Shown piece after piece: positions 29,363 through 41,273 of a stretch of 64,000 nt of DNA. The notes under the pieces were generated by a model. It saw only the letters and a list, made by a program, of their open reading frames with translations. It was not told the origin of the DNA and did not search any database. The position numbers were made by a program, and so were the translations under genes. The stretch's first letter is position 1. The number at the start of each line of letters is the position of its first letter. Source of the stretch: Bdellovibrio sp. ArHS (GTDB lineage: Bacteria; Bdellovibrionota; Bdellovibrionia; Bdellovibrionales; Bdellovibrionaceae); NCBI RefSeq assembly GCF_000786105.1, contig NZ_JTEV01000018.1, positions 1-64,000 on the forward strand, written 5' to 3'.

Positions 29363-32098
29363 TTAGAGTTCGTAGATACAGCGGAAGCCGGAGCCCATTA
29401 TTGCGGTTGCCGAGTCTCCACTTCGAAGCGCGGAAAACACACCGACTGATTCAGAAGCCCCCACCGAGCTGCCGCCCCTCCAGATCGCGCTGGCGCTGAC
29501 CGAAAGATCGATTTTTCCGAAGCCGCAATGATCAATGCCCGTAGGATAAGTACAGGTCATTGTCGTCCCGTATTTCGTTTTCACAAATCCCGCCGCCAAA
29601 GTTGAAACATAGTCCAGATTCGGATTGTAGATGGAGGCGTCCGTATCATAGACAATCTCCGCCGCATTTCCCGAAAAATCCCAGATCGACTGATTATGGG
29701 GCAACACATGCTTACGGCGATTCCCATTACTTTCACAAAGTACCAAGTCAGAGATGGGCCAACACGGATCTGATTCCAAAACGGATGATATGGATATGAC
29801 TTGATTATTTCCTCTATGCAGTAGCCCTGTTGTGCCGACAACGCCGTTTGTCCAATTCCCAGCTTGATTGGCGATGAGGTTTGCAACCGCGTTCCACTTG
29901 GAGTTCGTAATCAGAGAATACCCCGCTCCTAAAGACGTACAACCGGGAACCGCCTGCATCAGGTTCGCGCTGACCGGATCCCCAGAAGCAACGAACTGCG
30001 GAGTCGCAGCACTGACCTTCGCTTCAAAGCGGGCCACACAGAAAGGATCTGCTTCAATGGCAGGATTGTAGATGTAAGCGAAGTTGGTCGGACATGCCGT
30101 CGAGATGTAACTCTGAGAAACAATGCCGCTGGTGTTTCCGTATGGATCGCGCACCTGGATCTCCACGCGGTAAGTGACTCCAGGCTCAACGGCCGCGCCT
30201 AAAGAAAGTCCCGTGGACGTTGTCGCGACCTGAGTCCATCCTAAAATTTGCAGACCATCACTATGCCGAGAGACTTTCAACCAATAAGTCAAAGGATCAG
30301 GGTCAGCCGGTGGCGTGAAGGCGATCGTGGGCGTGATATCAATGCGCGCCGGGATTGCGGTGATATTTATTCCGGAAACGTCGCCGGGATTCAAAGAATC
30401 GATGCCAATGTTTCTCGCGCTTAAACGGTTTGCAGTCAACGTCGGTAAAGCTAAATCCGCGTTCGTGTTATTCGCCTGATCACGAATAGTGCCACCATTT
30501 AAAGTCACGCTTGTGACATCCAAGGGACTAATATCGATCCCCGGATCGGGCACGTAATTCATTTTTACAATCGTATTTCCAGATCCAGCCAAGAAAGAAG
30601 AAGAGGAAAACGATAAAACTCGTCCCGTATTTAAAATCATCTGCGGCGATCCGGTGATGACAACGGGCCGGGAGAACTGCATATAAAGAGCGATGTCTTC
30701 TCCCGCACGATATGTGACATTGGAAAGATCCCCATAGAGGCTCGTGATTTGGGGCATAGGCAGTTGTACAAGGAACGAAAAACCATTATTAAGCGCTGCC
30801 GTTGGTCTGTTTAAACTGTCTTTGGCTGTGGCAAAAATTTTATAAGAAATTCCGTTGGTAAGAATACAGGAACTAAAAACCGCATACCCCGTGGAGACAT
30901 TCTGAGTGGGACACACCACCGCCCCACCGGTATCCCGCACCTGGACATCATAAGAAGCCGCATCAGCAGAGCTTGAAAAATCAACGCGCAGGATGCTGCC
31001 CTTCAGCAGATTATCAATTGTCGAATCATCGACGGTGGACTGAACTCCGGTGATGGTAAAATCACCAGGCCCTGAAGTGTCCTTCGTGACCGTGATGTCG
31101 ACAGAAGATTCATTTCCCACAGCATCACTTTGGTATGCCGTCAAAGTCGAGACCCCTTCCGGCAAAACGACCTCGCCGGAAAAACTCTTAGCTACGGTAC
31201 AGGTGAAAGTTTCCGTTAACACGCCGTTAACTTTAATTTCCACCGGCATCAGATCTTCACTACAGGTTCCCTGAACCAGGAAGGAAGTTCCCGTAGAATA
31301 ATCCAAATCCGTAAGCACCGCCCCGGCTACAGGCGTCGTGATATGCAGCTCTGGTGCATCCAGATCCACATTCACGGTCATCTGCACCTCCGCATAGGCA
31401 TGACTGGAGGCCGTGCTCGCATGTTTCACTTTGAAAGTCACAGGTCCAGAGCTTAACGGAGACTTCAACGCTGCGGTCGCACTATAAATTCCACCGACAC
31501 AACTGACGGAATGAACATCTTCAAAAACGCCCGAGATTTCAATCACACCCGGTGTCTGTGAACAGGTTCCCGAAACAGTATAACCACCGCTCACCTGATG
31601 AGGACCGATCACGCCAGAGGTTGCCGTCACCGTGGGGGCACGAAAAAGCGCACTCAACGTTTTGTAGTAGAAGGAGACTTCCCCGTCTTGATTTTTCACG
31701 GACCAGCGAATTTGAAAAGGCTGACGAAAATCCCCACCCTCCGTCGCCATCGCGGGGGCCGCATGGGAAAGCGGAATGCTGAAGAAAATTTTGCCGTCAT
31801 CGGCGCAATCGGAATCGCCGCCGGCAATCAAATCTGTGCTTTTCGCCCAGGTCTTCGTCACCGGGTTTTGAACTTCAACGGACTGCACATTCGCGCTGCA
31901 TTCCGCGGTCAATAACAGTGAAGACTCCGTTGCGTCGGCCGCAAGGTCGCCATTATCTTCATTCGTCACCTTGAATTCGGATTTATTGAGAATCGAGGGA
32001 TTCAGGAAGGCCATTTCCAATGAGCGCTCGGTGCATGCTGATAAAAGCATGCAAATTATGACATAAAGAAATAGCTGGATTGGCGCCCCTGCCCGCAT
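29363..32098 (-). CDS. Large surface lipoprotein with Ig-like repeats and an FGE/SUMF-like C-terminal domain
   Basis: 911 residues. Lipobox LLSAC (Cys22). Residues about 130-690 consist of beta-sandwich modules: two bacterial Ig-like repeats (LKVKHAS-type and ITTPVAGAVLTDLDYS, TAYQSDAVGNESSVDITVTKD), a fibronectin-like module, and SLYGDLSNVTYRAGEDIALYM typical of cell-surface repeat domains. The C-terminus (about 690-911) resembles the formylglycine-generating-enzyme/C-type-lectin-like fold: WDFSGNAAEIV, WRGGSS and a closing SGFRCIYEL. It may act as an adhesin or binding protein. No good ribosome binding site is seen before the ATG; GAGGGG is about 20 bases upstream. Convergent with the MATE gene (26-base gap). 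Confidence 0.82.
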   Translation of the reverse strand: MRAGAPIQLFLYVIICMLLSACTERSLEMAFLNPSILNKSEFKVTNEDNGDLAADATESSLLLTAECSANVQSVEVQNPVTKTWAKSTDLIAGGDSDCADDGKIFFSIPLSHAAPAMATEGGDFRQPFQIRWSVKNQDGEVSFYYKTLSALFRAPTVTATSGVIGPHQVSGGYTVSGTCSQTPGVIEISGVFEDVHSVSCVGGIYSATAALKSPLSSGPVTFKVKHASTASSHAYAEVQMTVNVDLDAPELHITTPVAGAVLTDLDYSTGTSFLVQGTCSEDLMPVEIKVNGVLTETFTCTVAKSFSGEVVLPEGVSTLTAYQSDAVGNESSVDITVTKDTSGPGDFTITGVQSTVDDSTIDNLLKGSILRVDFSSSADAASYDVQVRDTGGAVVCPTQNVSTGYAVFSSCILTNGISYKIFATAKDSLNRPTAALNNGFSFLVQLPMPQITSLYGDLSNVTYRAGEDIALYMQFSRPVVITGSPQMILNTGRVLSFSSSSFLAGSGNTIVKMNYVPDPGIDISPLDVTSVTLNGGTIRDQANNTNADLALPTLTANRLSARNIGIDSLNPGDVSGINITAIPARIDITPTIAFTPPADPDPLTYWLKVSRHSDGLQILGWTQVATTSTGLSLGAAVEPGVTYRVEIQVRDPYGNTSGIVSQSYISTACPTNFAYIYNPAIEADPFCVARFEAKVSAATPQFVASGDPVSANLMQAVPGCTSLGAGYSLITNSKWNAVANLIANQAGNWTNGVVGTTGLLHRGNNQVISISSVLESDPCWPISDLVLCESNGNRRKHVLPHNQSIWDFSGNAAEIVYDTDASIYNPNLDYVSTLAAGFVKTKYGTTMTCTYPTGIDHCGFGKIDLSVSASAIWRGGSSVGASESVGVFSALRSGDSATAIMGSGFRCIYEL

Positions 32099-33673: not shown

Positions 33674-35755
33674 TTAAAGAAAAACACCCTCACAACGCAA
33701 GCTGATTGCGGGAACGACGGTGGCGGGTTTGTCTTTGGCGCCAAAAAGAAGAGTTTTCATTTCTCCCCAACCCAGTTTCACCAAGTCGGCGCGAGACATT
33801 TTTTCTTCGATCACAAGTTTTTGGTAAACCATCGCAGGATGTGCAATTGCATAACTTTTCATCATACTGGTTACTGTCAAAGTACTGCCGGCGTCAGCCA
33901 AAAGCTTATTCACAATCACGATACCGCGATTGAGACTGACAAACTCGTAAGGCAGCTTAAGGCCATTATCCATGGCAAAAGCCGTCCAGTGCTCTAAGGA
34001 GGTATTGGCTTCCGCACCCGCTTTGATTCGGCGAATACGTTCCGTCACCAAGCTTTGCAGTTGCGTCTGGTTGACCGCATTTCTTTCTTTGTCGCTCAGA
34101 TTCCAGAAAGCACGGGCGATCAGCTCGGCATTTAAAAGTTCCGTACCCGCCCCCAAAACCATCACCTGCCGCTGCATGGACTCGGCAATCACACCGCCCA
34201 TACCGAAATCAAGAATGTGCAAACGAATCTTGGGGTCGGTCACATTCATCATGAAATTGCCCTGATGAAGATCCGAATGATAGAAGCCGCCACCGAACAT
34301 CACTTCGTTGGCCCATAACTTCGCCATGTTTTCGATCACCGCTTTTTTCATCTCCGGAGCGACTTCCTTGTACAAAGCCACTTCTTTATCAAGTTTTCTA
34401 CCAATCACCATCTCCTGCACCATCAGATTGGATTCGCCGGTGGGTTCGTAAATCCGCGGCACATTGAATTCGATGAAGTTTTTGTAGTCGCGGGTTTTCA
34501 TCAGGACCGTGCTGTCATAACGGGTCTTCGCCAGTTTTTGACGGCGAATGGTGTCTTCCTGGCTTAGTTCTGCGGTCACCGTTGATGTGATGTCCTCGAT
34601 GATGGGTGTCAGCTTCGGAGCACCGGTTTTACGAAACTCCGGATTCGCATCCAGGATCTTCGCCACTTCCGTCAGAATCAGTTTGTCTTCCTGCACACGG
34701 TCGACAATTCCTGGTTTGATAAAACGAACGACGACATCATGACGTTTGCCATCCAAAAGGATTTTTGCACGATGCACTTGCGCCATCGTACCGACGCCCA
34801 ATGCTTTTCTTTCAAAATAAATGAATTTATAGTTGCCGTGCTCTTTATTGACGATTTGTTCGACCTGCACCCAAGGCACCGGACGAACCGAGTTTTCCAA
34901 AGCTCGAAAAACCTCTAACATTTCAGGTCCTAGATCCGCCTGCCGAGCAACCACCTGCAAAAGTTTCTGCAATTGGGGACCACTGTTTTGCACCATGATC
35001 TCAAATTTTTTCATATCAGAGATCAAAAGATCGCCGCCCAGGTAAGAGGACACGATAAGTTTTTTTGAAGCCGGCGTTAAGCGAGAGTAGTACTCACTGA
35101 ACATCGTCTCCATAAAGATTCTCATGGTCGCATCCTGCTGTTGCGCGAAACCGTTTTGCGCGATTTTTTCACCGACGCGATCCAATTCTTTCATGCGATC
35201 AGCTAACAAGGCTTCACTTTCCTGCAAGGCCCAATTCTCAGCAATTTTTTGCGCCTCGGGATTCTGCAATAAGGCCAGGGCCTGTCCCGCCATTTTCTCG
35301 ATGTCAACGGGTTCACCACCACTCTGTTTTTCCGCCATGGACTTCAACTGTTCTTGTTGCCACTCCAAATACTGATCAATCTGCTTTTGCACACGCGGAC
35401 TTTCCGACACAAAAATCTTCATCGCCTGAGGCCCTTGCTTTTCAATAAGCTCGACGTCGAGGGCGACACTGTGAGTGCTGGGCCAAGACCCTTTATGAAG
35501 ACGCAAAAACTCGTCAAAGTTTTTGACCTTCACTTCTTGCACCTCTTGCTTATAGACATCTTGAAAATAGGCTTTCGCGCGTTCTAATATTTCGTGTTTA
35601 TTTTCGGACGATTCCCCTTGGGCTAAAAGCGCATAAGTCAAAGCCAGCCTTTGTTCAAAAGACAAATGCAAACCCACTGACGCCGGCGCGGCCGCCCAAG
35701 CAAACTTCGCGACAAAAACGTACAAAAGAAGTGAGAATTTAAAGACCTTCAACAT
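33674..35755 (-). CDS. ABC1/UbiB-type atypical kinase with a signal peptide
   Basis: 693 residues from ATG 35755 (AAGG seven bases upstream; the frame is open 21 codons more). The protein starts with a convincing signal peptide (MLKVFKFSLLLYVFVAKFAWAA, cleavage near AAA). A long helical N-terminal part (about 25-250) is followed by an ABC1-kinase domain (about 255-560). The KxGQ block reads SGPQLQKLLQVV, the A-rich loop reads GVGTMAQVHRA (322-328), the strand with the ATP lysine reads VVVRFIKPG (Arg344 in place of Lys). The catalytic loop HSDLHQGN (493-500) and DFG (516-518) are kept. Known UbiB/ABC1 proteins act in ubiquinone biosynthesis in the cytoplasm or mitochondria; export makes that unlikely here. 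Confidence 0.83.
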   Translation of the reverse strand: MLKVFKFSLLLYVFVAKFAWAAAPASVGLHLSFEQRLALTYALLAQGESSENKHEILERAKAYFQDVYKQEVQEVKVKNFDEFLRLHKGSWPSTHSVALDVELIEKQGPQAMKIFVSESPRVQKQIDQYLEWQQEQLKSMAEKQSGGEPVDIEKMAGQALALLQNPEAQKIAENWALQESEALLADRMKELDRVGEKIAQNGFAQQQDATMRIFMETMFSEYYSRLTPASKKLIVSSYLGGDLLISDMKKFEIMVQNSGPQLQKLLQVVARQADLGPEMLEVFRALENSVRPVPWVQVEQIVNKEHGNYKFIYFERKALGVGTMAQVHRAKILLDGKRHDVVVRFIKPGIVDRVQEDKLILTEVAKILDANPEFRKTGAPKLTPIIEDITSTVTAELSQEDTIRRQKLAKTRYDSTVLMKTRDYKNFIEFNVPRIYEPTGESNLMVQEMVIGRKLDKEVALYKEVAPEMKKAVIENMAKLWANEVMFGGGFYHSDLHQGNFMMNVTDPKIRLHILDFGMGGVIAESMQRQVMVLGAGTELLNAELIARAFWNLSDKERNAVNQTQLQSLVTERIRRIKAGAEANTSLEHWTAFAMDNGLKLPYEFVSLNRGIVIVNKLLADAGSTLTVTSMMKSYAIAHPAMVYQKLVIEEKMSRADLVKLGWGEMKTLLFGAKDKPATVVPAISLRCEGVFL

Positions 35756-35911
35756 GCCACAACCTTGGAAAAAATATCCATGATAGGCTTTGCACGGAAT
35801 AGGCCGACATAGGCTCATTCAGAGAACATTCTGAGCTGACGAAAATTTAGACAGAGCCCCTTTTTGGGCAGATTTTAGAAAGACGAGGTCTTGGCGAAAG
35901 CAGAAATAAAG

Positions 35912-36337: not shown

Positions 36338-37474
36338 CTACTTCAAAAGAAATGCGATCAATTCATCTTTCTGAGCCATCCCATCCTTGTAACCAATTTC
36401 AATCAGATCGGAACAAAAACCGGGATCAAAAAGCAGATAGCTAATGATCTCACTGGCGTCTTCTAACGAGCCAAGTCCCTTTAACAGATAGCGAACCACG
36501 CCGGGCAGCTTGCGCGCTTTCTGCACGGCCATCTCTCCGATATCGGCGGAAGGTGAAATAAACAGATAATCCAAAGGACGCAAACTGATTTTCTGCTGTT
36601 GATCCGAAGGAATTGCCAGCGCATATTCATTCAGGCGGCGCAGACGATCAATGTCCTGCTCAATCGCATCAAGCAAGACGCCATTTAAAATCGTGTTGAT
36701 GACCCGGGCGACATTCGGGGATTTTGTGGTCTGTTGCGCCCGCTCTTCATAGGCAATTCCGGCCTGCCGCCGAACTCCAATCACCAGAAGTTTTTCCGCG
36801 CCAAGATAGATCACTGGACTGCAAGGCGCATGATTTCGTACAGCTCCGTCACCAAAAAAGCGATCGTCGACCTGAACCGGAGGAAACAGCAGAGGAATCG
36901 CCGATGACGCCATGATGTGATCGGTCGAAATGATGGTTCTTTCGCTGTATTTTCTTCCTTTATTCCAGGAAGGCAACTGATCTTGTCCTTGAATGAAAGT
37001 GACCGTGGCAGACGTGGCATAATTGATTGCGGTGATCGCCAAGGCTTTTAAGTGACCGTCTTTAAAGTTTTGCGCCACTTTATCATAGTTCATATTGTCA
37101 TGAATCAACGTGCGCAAAGGCGAAGTTTCCAAGAGAGCTCGGCCAGGGGTTGTGCCGGTCAAAGAGCCCAGTGACAATTCACTCATCCACTGAAAACCGA
37201 TTTTACCCATGGTTAAGGCGTCGGTGGAAAACACCCGATCGACGGTAACTTCGCTCCATAATTTGACCAGAGTCTCTGAGGCATTTTTAAAGTTCTCGCA
37301 GTTTGCCGCCAAAGAACTGGCATTGATGGCGCCGGCACTGACACCAGAAAGATATTCAAACCGCGGCAGTATTCCCGATGTCTCGCTGATCTTTTGTACG
37401 GCGGCGAGGACCCCGACCTGATATGCGCCGCGAGCGCCCCCACCCGAAAGAACCAAACCCATTTTTTTCGCCAT
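36338..37474 (-). CDS. Patatin-like phospholipase
   Basis: 378 residues from ATG 37474 (AAGGG eight bases upstream). A TTG 13 codons higher is in frame but lies in a hairpin stem. Patatin Ser-Asp dyad lipase: oxyanion loop LSGGGARGAYQ at the N-terminus, nucleophile Ser46 in GVSAG, and catalytic Asp209 in FFGDGAVRN. No signal peptide. Bacterial patatins release fatty acids from membrane phospholipids and some are secreted effectors; in a predator an attack on prey or own membranes is conceivable but inferred. The C-terminal third (about 260-378) is helical. Follows the TonB receptor by 94 bases. Confidence 0.92.
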   Translation of the reverse strand: MAKKMGLVLSGGGARGAYQVGVLAAVQKISETSGILPRFEYLSGVSAGAINASSLAANCENFKNASETLVKLWSEVTVDRVFSTDALTMGKIGFQWMSELSLGSLTGTTPGRALLETSPLRTLIHDNMNYDKVAQNFKDGHLKALAITAINYATSATVTFIQGQDQLPSWNKGRKYSERTIISTDHIMASSAIPLLFPPVQVDDRFFGDGAVRNHAPCSPVIYLGAEKLLVIGVRRQAGIAYEERAQQTTKSPNVARVINTILNGVLLDAIEQDIDRLRRLNEYALAIPSDQQQKISLRPLDYLFISPSADIGEMAVQKARKLPGVVRYLLKGLGSLEDASEIISYLLFDPGFCSDLIEIGYKDGMAQKDELIAFLLK

Positions 37475-37484
37475 CGTGACCGCC

Positions 37485-37515
37485 CTTTGAGCGAGAGAAA
37501 TCCTCTCACTCAAAG
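37485..37515 (-). promoter_or_regulatory. Hairpin in the patatin leader touching the ribosome binding site
   Basis: Stem CTTTGAGCGAGAG / CTCTCACTCAAAG (plus-strand view, one mismatch), loop AAATC. On the minus strand the 3' arm runs into the AAGGG Shine-Dalgarno at 37487-37483, so folding could limit patatin translation. On the plus strand it is followed by TTTTT and could equally stop antisense transcription. Confidence 0.5.
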
Positions 37516-37568
37516 TTTTTCACTGTTGGGTCCTTTTTGCCAGTACAAAAAAGAAGTCTATCGCTGGA

Positions 37569-39668
37569 CTACAAGTCGTAGTTCAAGCCCACCACAAAGG
37601 ACCGACCTTTCCCGGCCACAGGGGATTTTCCGTTTAAAATATCTTTACCTCCCAAGGGCAGATCGTATTGAGTATCGAACACATTAAGGACCTGCAAAGA
37701 CGTCGTGAAGGCAGTCCCCCATTTGTATTCAGTCCCCAAGTCCGCGGTCGCATAGGCGCCGGTTTTATGCTCGTTTCTGATCCCCGAGACATCTTCTTTC
37801 GCGGCCACCATGTGCACTTCCGCTCTGTTTTTCCACTTGGAGGTTTCCTGATTTAGAATCAACTTACCATTCCAAGGCATCTGATTGTATAAGTCCGACA
37901 CGCCATCCTTGCGATAGCCGCGAGTAAAACTGGTAAGAGCTTTGATATTGAAAGCACCATAGCTTTCTGTTTGCAGGAAATCCCAAGAGACTGAAGCCTC
38001 TGTTCCAAAAATGATCGCATCATGATTTGCAAACTGTAAATAGCGAACGCCCGTATCACTTCCCGTTGTCGAGATGTATTTTAAATCCGCGTCGATGTAA
38101 TCTTGAATTTCAGAGTAATAAGGAGTGATCTCGATGTGTGCTCCTTGTGCGGACTGATAAAAGTAGCTGGCGCTAAGGATGTGCGAGACTTCAGGTCGCA
38201 AATTTATATTTCCGACATAACCATTCCCATCACCAAACCAGTTAATCATTCGCATGTCCATACGTACGGGATTGGACGTCGCCAGTGTCGACTGTAAGCC
38301 CGCCCACGTATAACGTTCATACAGATTCGGAGAGCGGGACTTACGACCCAGCCCCAGGACTATCTTTTGTGATTCTGAAATCTGATACGCGTTCAACCAC
38401 GTCATATCGTAATTCACATCCGTTTTATTTCGTTCCAGACTGTTGAAGTAGGCCTCATCGGCTGGCGCATTGCTGGTATTGTTATATCCCTGAACACGGC
38501 CCGTATCCATACTCACCACATCGACCCGCGCCCCTATATTCGTACTGTACGAAGAGTTCCACTGGGTTTCATTCTCGACAAAAAAGGCATATCTGTCGCG
38601 ATGGCCATCATTGATATTTACGAAGTTATTCGGCGACATGCCGCCCATCCCCGAAACCGGCGTCCACCAGTCATTCAGGGAGTAAAAATTCACCTCCACG
38701 CCTGCGGAAGTGTCAGAGGTCTGCGATGAAATAAGATGAGATTTTGCAAGCAAGTTGGTCTCTTTAGAGTCCGTATACATCGGCATTTGACCCGAGCTAT
38801 AATCACGAAGCTTATCCATATAGTGATCGACGTTTTGATGGCTTAACGAGACGTCACTCTTTAGCGTGCCAAGAAGCCCCCGGTATTTTACATTGTACTT
38901 CATCGCCGTGTTTTCAAGCATGTCCATGTATTGATTGACGAAGCCCTGCTTGGGCACCGCCGTTCGCCCGACCCGAAACGAGAGCGTCCCGTCGGCTAAC
39001 TTACGCGCATAAACCAGACTGTGGTTGTTTTGTTCATAGGCGGTTCTTTTAACGATATCGCTTTTTCCGTTTTTGTAGTCTCGGGCCTTTTCATCCGTTC
39101 CATAGTAGCCCACGGAATTGCTCAGATCAGCAAACCCCACATGCGCTGATAAATTTAAATAATCTTCATTGGAGCCATAAATCGAGGAAAACTGCCCAGA
39201 GTATCGCGACTCACCGGATGTGAAGCCGGGATGTTGAGTATTCACCAAAATACTTCCCCCCAGACTGTCTCCACCTAAAGACACTGGCGTAATTCCTGGA
39301 ATGGCGGTGATCGCTTCCACTTGAAAAGAAGATATATAACTTAAAGCAGGATTCATGTGATTAGGACAAGAGGCCGTCACTCCGACTCCATCAACCTTCA
39401 CATTCACCCGGTCCGAAGACACCCCGTGCATTACCGGAAGCGACGAAATGCCCCCGCCTGTCTGCATTTGCACGGACGGTTCTTCATCAAGAGCTTTGAG
39501 CGAATCCCCTTGCGTCCGTGTTCGTCGTTCAAGATGCCCGGTTTTATTTGAATCCTGAATGGTCACGGTCGGCAGTGTGTCTGCCGACCCCTCTGCGAAG
39601 ACGACTCCGGAATAAACCGCCATTAAAACGTATAAAGACAACCCGCACACCTTTGATTTATTCATCAT
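37569..39668 (-). CDS. TonB-dependent outer-membrane receptor, OprC/NosA copper-receptor type
   Basis: 699 residues with signal peptide (MMNKSKVCGLSLYVLMAVYS..., cleavage near VFA). Plug domain about 45-150, then a 22-strand-type barrel closing with VVGLNYDL. The plug has the block CPNHMNPALSYI followed by PGITPVSLGGDSLGGSI, which I associate with OprC/NosA copper receptors. The CxxxM copper motif is present as Cys101/Met105, and an HxM candidate as His282/Met284 (VDHYMDK). Likely imports copper or a copper complex with TonB energy. No copper enzyme gene is adjacent. AGGGGGG before ATG. The TonB box is unclear; LPTVTIQDS at 32-40 is a candidate. Confidence 0.87.
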   Translation of the reverse strand: MMNKSKVCGLSLYVLMAVYSGVVFAEGSADTLPTVTIQDSNKTGHLERRTRTQGDSLKALDEEPSVQMQTGGGISSLPVMHGVSSDRVNVKVDGVGVTASCPNHMNPALSYISSFQVEAITAIPGITPVSLGGDSLGGSILVNTQHPGFTSGESRYSGQFSSIYGSNEDYLNLSAHVGFADLSNSVGYYGTDEKARDYKNGKSDIVKRTAYEQNNHSLVYARKLADGTLSFRVGRTAVPKQGFVNQYMDMLENTAMKYNVKYRGLLGTLKSDVSLSHQNVDHYMDKLRDYSSGQMPMYTDSKETNLLAKSHLISSQTSDTSAGVEVNFYSLNDWWTPVSGMGGMSPNNFVNINDGHRDRYAFFVENETQWNSSYSTNIGARVDVVSMDTGRVQGYNNTSNAPADEAYFNSLERNKTDVNYDMTWLNAYQISESQKIVLGLGRKSRSPNLYERYTWAGLQSTLATSNPVRMDMRMINWFGDGNGYVGNINLRPEVSHILSASYFYQSAQGAHIEITPYYSEIQDYIDADLKYISTTGSDTGVRYLQFANHDAIIFGTEASVSWDFLQTESYGAFNIKALTSFTRGYRKDGVSDLYNQMPWNGKLILNQETSKWKNRAEVHMVAAKEDVSGIRNEHKTGAYATADLGTEYKWGTAFTTSLQVLNVFDTQYDLPLGGKDILNGKSPVAGKGRSFVVGLNYDL

Positions 39669-40416: not shown

Positions 40417-41208
40417 TTATAAAATCTCAATGGGATCGTTGCTTCGGATGATCCCCTCGTTTTCAGGAATCCAGAGTGCACCGAACACAACTCCTCTTTC
40501 TTCTTTGCGATAAGTCGATAAAGTCTTAAGAGGTTCAGGTCCGGTCTTTTCGCCGGTCTTCTGATCAATAGTAATGATCGAACAGCGCGTGCACTTTTTA
40601 GGTTGAGAAAAAATCACTTCACCAATGCGTATGCGACTCCATTGGTCTTCGACAAAAGCCTGCGGACCGCTGAAAACAATATTCGCACGAAAACGATCCA
40701 AAGGGACCGGCTCTGCCAATCTGGCATTAAGGTCTTCCAAACTTTTTAAATTAAGCAGGGACAAAGGACGTCCGTCGGCAAAACGCACCTCGGGTTGCCA
40801 GGACTCTTCATTGACAGAACGCACTCGACGCTGCGAAAAAGGCGCGTATCGAACCAGCCTACAGTTCACGCCCAAGTACTGAGAAATTCCCTGCGAGTAT
40901 AAATCCGGCTCCAGTGCCGCTTCAAAACTGTCATTCCAAACTTGAACGGTGATTCTTCTTTGCCAAGAATTCTTCTTGGAAATTTTAAAAAACATCTTCT
41001 GAAAACCTACGGTCAAAGAAGTCTCGTCCTGAAAAACCTCAATGGTCGCCAGCTTCGGAACCGTTCTTTGTGATAAGAACTTGCCATTTTCATCCACCAA
41101 CATCCACTGGCGGTCCCCCTCCGGCCCTTCCGACGTGATTTTCATTTCTTTCACACTTTGTGCCCGGGCGGATTTAATGGGATAAATAAAAAGCTCTTCG
41201 ATTTTCAT
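40417..41208 (-). CDS. MOSC domain protein (YcbX/mARC type)
   Basis: 263 residues from ATG 41208; ATG/ATT codons 6-12 residues upstream (MQQKES...) are alternatives since no start has a good ribosome binding site. N-terminal MOSC_N beta-barrel (MKIEELFIYPIKSARAQSV, EGPEGDRQWMLVD) about 1-115, then MOSC (about 120-263) with DGRPLSLLN, RFRANIV and the molybdenum-cofactor cysteine in PKKCTRCSIITIDQKTG. E. coli YcbX reduces N-hydroxylated bases with molybdenum cofactor; the same activity is expected but no reductase partner domain (2Fe-2S) is present here. Confidence 0.88.
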   Translation of the reverse strand: MKIEELFIYPIKSARAQSVKEMKITSEGPEGDRQWMLVDENGKFLSQRTVPKLATIEVFQDETSLTVGFQKMFFKISKKNSWQRRITVQVWNDSFEAALEPDLYSQGISQYLGVNCRLVRYAPFSQRRVRSVNEESWQPEVRFADGRPLSLLNLKSLEDLNARLAEPVPLDRFRANIVFSGPQAFVEDQWSRIRIGEVIFSQPKKCTRCSIITIDQKTGEKTGPEPLKTLSTYRKEERGVVFGALWIPENEGIIRSNDPIEIL

Positions 41209-41273
41209 ACCTAAGATGCTTTCTTTTTGTTGCATTAAAATCAAGCCTAAACTGCCGGTGTTGCATTCGGAGC

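Follow-up and report, generated by a model that had tools for sequence, protein, structure and literature searches.

The window analysed here, a 64,000-nucleotide stretch of DNA from Bdellovibrio sp. ArHS, carries at 33674-35755 on the minus strand (stop codon included) the gene for a putatively exported ABC1/UbiB-like protein of 693 amino acids, which begins MLKVFKFSLLLYVFVAKFAWAAAP. Both ends of the open reading frame were exact on direct reading, with the ATG at 35753-35755 and the stop codon at 33674-33676. A second in-frame ATG lies upstream, at 35818, and several orthologues have a stop codon a few codons ahead of the methionine equivalent to that at 35755. Within the kinase region, a dN of 0.042 and a dS of 2.7 were obtained against the closest orthologue compared, the only pair to which the selection figures refer, many other dS values not being computable. 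With dS near saturation, the resulting ratio of 0.015 is a rough sign of strong constraint on the gene.

Promoter and terminator scans returned no more than was found in shuffled sequences. When the neighbours of 21 related loci were compared, flanking MFS, lipoprotein and MATE genes stayed near the kinase gene in only some members of the genus, while no gene travelled with it across genera. Guilt by association was thus rejected as a guide to function, as neither a conserved partner, nor a pointer to quinones or lipids, nor a secretion-system neighbour emerged from it. In the window, a patatin-like phospholipase gene and a TonB-dependent receptor gene (36338-39668, minus strand) lie directly upstream of the kinase gene; since, in most of the congeners examined, a gene matching window positions 40417-41244 is located much nearer to it instead, the two genes look like an insertion or rearrangement in this genome. 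A lipoprotein-like protein of 911 amino acids with a fast-diverging body, encoded at 29363-32098 (minus strand), is in synteny with the kinase gene in some members of the genus.

A Sec signal peptide was predicted by inspection and hydropathy at residues 1-21 (35693-35755; minus strand, as for all features below), with cleavage at AWA/AAP. The N-terminal MLKVFKFSLLLYVFVAKFAWA, followed by AAP, fits a Sec/SPI signal, and no other transmembrane (TM) segment was detected by hydropathy in the 693-residue protein. On reading their sequences, no such N-terminus was seen in the three other ABC1 genes of the same genome (L001-L003), of which the UbiB-like copy L001 has TM segments. The strongest 11-residue N-terminal hydropathy ranged from 1.66 to 3.8 (median 2.75) in 67 putatively exported homologues, as against 0.25 to 1.78 in 12 cytoplasmic copies, so that the ranges nearly separate but touch. 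L038 and L147 were left out of the 67 for their uncertain starts. Where several starts were possible, the one including the signal was chosen, and the statistic is accordingly not independent of that choice; in many members of the genus, a stop codon just upstream backs the signal-including start.

Orthologues beginning after the signal-like stretch would speak against export, and the opposite was observed: the signal is kept, with A-x-A-like cleavage sites or lipoboxes at the same place. A simple lipobox pattern gave 12 candidates, nine of which were accepted on inspection as having a lipobox in place of the SPI site (L099, L100, L102, L104, L105, L109, L110, L112 and L113), while L011, L017 and L034 were rejected as lipoproteins because they look like SPI signals. 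In line with the claim of the earlier note, the protein thus appears, from its N-terminus and those of its relatives, to be exported from the cytoplasm.

The mature part of the protein was divided into an N-terminal domain (residues 22-245; 35021-35692), as delimited in a structure model, and a UbiB/COQ8 kinase-like region (residues 246-640; 33836-35020), as delimited by Pfam and the modelled fold. Pfam ABC1 (PF03109) matched residues 286-532 with an E-value of 5.7e-29 and 101.4 bits against a cut-off of 22.9, and all 32 family members matched it at an E-value of 0.01. The UbiB equivalog TIGR01982 scored 99.2 bits, far under its cut-off of 487.55. In the model (mean pLDDT 83, with low confidence at residues 147-163 and 674-693), residues 249-643 came closest to human COQ8A (5i35; Z 17.8, rmsd 3.8, 340 aligned residues), which bears out the proposed membership of the UbiB family at the level of predicted structure. 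The second-best group of solved structures comprised the mycobacterial relatives Rv3197 and MSMEG_1954 (Z 13-15), followed by Rio kinases at about 12, with Rio and ePK rows below COQ8A. The N-terminal domain had been described as a long helical region; it is indeed mostly helical in the model, with the addition of two short strands. Modelled alone (pLDDT 82), it resembled no known fold in Foldseek (best E-value 2.0) or VIA-align (best Z 2.8), which is not proof of a new fold, and a weak Pfam match to ANKLE2_3rd (18.5 bits, under the cut-off of 27) was not accepted.

Along with the ABC1 domain and the modelled fold, the protein shares with COQ8A/ADCK3 and bacterial UbiB the Lys and Gln of KxxQ, the ExD Glu, the HxDxHxGN and DFG motifs and an Arg at the R611 position. 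By alignment, the KxGQ motif corresponds to KLLQ (residues 264-267; 34955-34966), and in 59 of 59 exported rows its Lys and Gln are kept and its Gly is replaced. The ExD Glu is Glu396 (34568-34570), at a position occupied by Glu or Asp in the branch to which the protein belongs (termed Arg-type below). Both the catalytic loop HSDLHQGN (residues 493-500; 34256-34279) and the DFG metal-binding motif (residues 516-518; 34202-34210) are intact in the sequence and the alignment, as had been read before. Arg610 (33926-33928), invariably Arg in the 59 rows, was taken, from its alignment position, as the UbiB-family R/K equivalent to COQ8A Arg611, the residue that forms a salt bridge with the catalytic Asp. 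K264, Q267, D495, G499, N500, D516 and G518 were also invariant in all 59.

This contrasted with the AAAS loop, the β3 Lys and the αC Glu of COQ8A and UbiB, all of which are replaced. The nucleotide loop reads LGVGT (residues 319-323; 34787-34801) instead of the Ala-rich AAAS; in the Arg-type branch GxGT takes its place, and G322 is found in 53 of the 59 exported rows. Therefore, the view that the KxGQ motif and the A-rich loop are degenerate holds for the Gly of KxGQ, but its Lys and Gln are fully conserved and the loop is a conserved GxGT. Arg344 (34724-34726), within VVVRFIKPG, occupies the β3 ATP-lysine position and aligns to Lys in all cytoplasmic paralogues compared, which agrees with the substitution first noticed there; across the 59 exported rows this residue is Arg in 53, Lys in five and Gly in one. 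Thr402 (34550-34552) stands at the position of the αC Glu that pairs with the β3 Lys, so that both members of the canonical pair are missing. Lys347 (34715-34717), R or Y in canonical relatives, switches together with Arg344, and Glu287 (34895-34897), specific to the Arg-type branch, is inferred to be a candidate new partner of Arg344.

In a search of 100 related genomes, 19 of 23 congeners had a strong match over the full length or nearly so; the copy in G008 was split over two contigs, and no strong match was obtained in three of the 23 (G004, G012 and G021). A single-protein contig search, which finds close relatives, matched only three Bdellovibrio MAGs, and a plasmid search returned only matches of 22-26% identity, all without the N-terminal domain. 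With a 32-row profile searched against 369 genomes of the window's phylum, the exported ABC1 family was found to span many families. A first exported group scored approximately 300-1040 bits and a second 150-195 bits, most ordinary UbiB/AarF proteins scoring below these; sequences from both exported groups were retrieved and inspected. The branch is thus found across the phylum and is not a one-off.

In a motif count of 68 rows, 51 combined R344, no αC Glu and E287, 11 combined Lys, an αC Glu and no E287, and six were mixed. Among the chimeric rows added for this count, L145 and L146 have more degenerate motifs. In a tree built with the switching motif columns left out, the Arg type (49 of 73 rows, SH-aLRT 98) and the exported rows of Lys type (12 rows, SH-aLRT 100) each fell to one side of a branch of their own, the joining of both exported groups being weakly supported (49) and dependent on the root. 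The Arg-type change set comprises β3 K to R, loss of the αC Glu, a new Glu at 287, R to K at 347 and AAAS to GxGT, while the 12-row exported branch retains the canonical Lys-Glu pair. The concerted nature of this switch, the invariant catalytic residues and the existence of an exported branch that keeps the pair argue, from the alignments, for an Arg-type site that is rewired but constrained, not decayed. L147, counted as Lys-type exported in the tree, has neither signal nor tail Cys, and its frame is perhaps truncated or mis-started. Proteins L146 and L144, of about 1270 amino acids, begin with a signal-like stretch, contain an ABC1-like segment and end in a C-terminal tail reading CEHAFNF or CEQAFSF. 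Two exported Lys-type copies each occur in G159 and G160 of family f12 (L114, L115, L149 and L150), and two exported Arg-type copies from different sub-branches in G053 (L039/L043), G040 (L033/L037) and G138 (L102/L110).

The only Cys of the window protein, Cys688 (33692-33694), lies near the C-terminus and is strongly conserved in the exported family; neither this residue nor the loss of the αC Glu featured in the earlier note. A Cys within 20 residues of the C-terminus was present in 61 of 67 exported homologues, compared to about 1.5% expected from the Cys frequency of the body. The six exceptions were L148 (21), L114 and L150 (29), L154 (35), L149 (46) and L009, which lies on a contig that stops early. 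For 47 of the 61, no Cys other than that of the tail followed residue 30. The idea that exported Bdellovibrio proteins generally share a C-terminal Cys sorting tail was rejected, since among 97 SPI-type proteins of a 464-kb sample, made up of the window and 20 G002 stretches of 20 kb each, only two had a lone tail Cys, both of them of the exported ABC1 family. As far as this sample shows, the tail Cys is a trait of that family and not of exported proteins generally. Residues 674-693 being of low confidence, the placing of the Cys is not given by the model.

The window protein is set apart from COQ8A and UbiB by its export signal, its extra N-terminal domain, its C-terminal Cys and the lack of a C-terminal TM pair. 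No description of an exported ABC1 protein was found in a full-text literature search whose coverage included few subscription journals and no preprints. For COQ8A, a review describes KxGQ and ExD motifs that pack into the active site and close off the substrate pocket, a contact between Arg611 and the catalytic Asp, and a loop in which replacing Ala by Gly inverts the preference for ADP and permits autophosphorylation (PMC4718504). The window protein has a Gly in this loop naturally, but without the Lys-Glu pair. Yeast Cqd1 and Cqd2 act on the intermembrane-space side in CoQ distribution and phospholipid homeostasis, and need their kinase-like residues (PMC8346625, PMC10214851). They resemble the window protein, as predicted, in that their UbiB-type domain is on the side of the membrane that corresponds to the periplasm, and differ in being mitochondrial inner-membrane proteins that depend on canonical kinase-like and UbiB residues; the likeness is drawn from published descriptions. 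WNK-type kinases also lack the β3 ATP lysine while keeping other catalytic residues (PMC4718504). They belong to a different family, however, in which a Lys from β2 is the substitute, in contrast with an Arg in β3 and the additional loss of the αC Glu here.

By analogy with Cqd1/Cqd2, we tentatively prefer to regard the protein as an envelope-side UbiB protein, probably serving quinone or lipid homeostasis. The Sec signal is strongly predicted to carry it across the inner membrane, after which it would stay periplasmic or, where a lipoprotein signal is present, membrane-anchored. Its modelled UbiB/COQ8 domain, preceded by the domain without a recognised fold, may bind a Mg-nucleotide or a phosphorylated ligand through the invariant Asp495, Asn500 and Asp516, with Arg344/Lys347 and possibly Glu287 standing in for the Lys-Glu pair. 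Binding or turnover of the ligand would then regulate or move membrane quinone or lipid from the periplasmic face, as proposed for other UbiB proteins, and the C-terminal Cys may couple the protein by a disulfide to a partner or a second copy. Since the catalytic Asp, the Asn and the DFG Asp are invariant over very divergent sequences, the alignment speaks for a site that still binds nucleotide or metal; activity as a protein kinase is unlikely. Against the quinone or lipid reading, the window protein has no TM anchor, unlike Cqd1, and no genomic neighbour points to quinones or lipids; the scarcity of periplasmic ATP and the missing Lys-Glu pair, taken up next, count against it too.

A less probable possibility, although one that ranks close behind, is an exported pseudokinase scaffold, in which the fold would hold a partner protein or a ligand, be it a nucleotide or another molecule, without phosphotransfer, the conserved residues keeping the ligand or the structure in place; genome context does not decide between the two readings. 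ATP is not normally available in the periplasm and is scarce outside the cytoplasm in general, which is in keeping with such a scaffold; an ATP uptake system has reportedly been published for Bdellovibrio. As both the β3 Lys and the αC Glu are lost in the Arg-type branch, phosphotransfer may indeed be absent. In the kinases tested, catalysis is described as depending on the β3 Lys, and there are pseudokinases that bind nucleotide but do not catalyse (PMC4718504). However, invariance of Asp495, Asn500, Asp516 and the KxxQ residues in 59 divergent proteins is not expected of a pure scaffold, and another exported branch keeps the canonical pair.

We consider it doubtful that these features combine into an exported UbiB subfamily, present throughout the phylum, in which the changes to the site arose as a unit for nucleotide- or phosphate-dependent chemistry in the envelope, with a Cys-coupled partner. 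An exported transferase of other chemistry, such as AMPylation or small-molecule phosphorylation, drawing nucleotide from lysing prey or the envelope, is unlikely. That the catalytic Asp, the Asn and the DFG are intact and that the loop is Gly-rich-like would suit it, as would the ATP preference and autophosphorylation allowed by restoring Gly in the COQ8A loop (PMC4718504), but the β3 Lys is gone, the KxxQ helix would be expected to keep protein substrates out, as it does in COQ8A (PMC4718504), and the neighbours of the 21 related loci indicate no substrate or partner.

Action in the prey, raised in the earlier note together with a link to life in the prey periplasm, has very little in its favour: a Bdellovibrio origin and an export signal are compatible with release, in the course of predation, into the periplasm or the cytoplasm of the prey, but the gene is spread over many families of the phylum, lacks a strong match in three congeners and has neither conserved nor secretion-system neighbours, and the lipoprotein-type signals of other families point to a protein kept in the producer's own envelope. 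Finally, a cytoplasmic protein or an uncleaved N-terminal anchor is the most improbable of all, for although the localisation was predicted from sequence features and L001 has TM segments, cleavage sites and lipoboxes coincide in relatives, and even an anchored form would have its domain outside the cytoplasm.

What UbiB proteins, an ancient family, do at the molecular level is still under debate. A bacterial branch predicted to lie on the side of the inner membrane that corresponds to the position of Cqd1/Cqd2 would give a simple genetic system for this question. The coupled Lys-Glu replacement, beside a canonical exported branch, constitutes a natural comparison of which UbiB residues matter, and the exported branch itself suggests that UbiB-like work takes place in the bacterial envelope.
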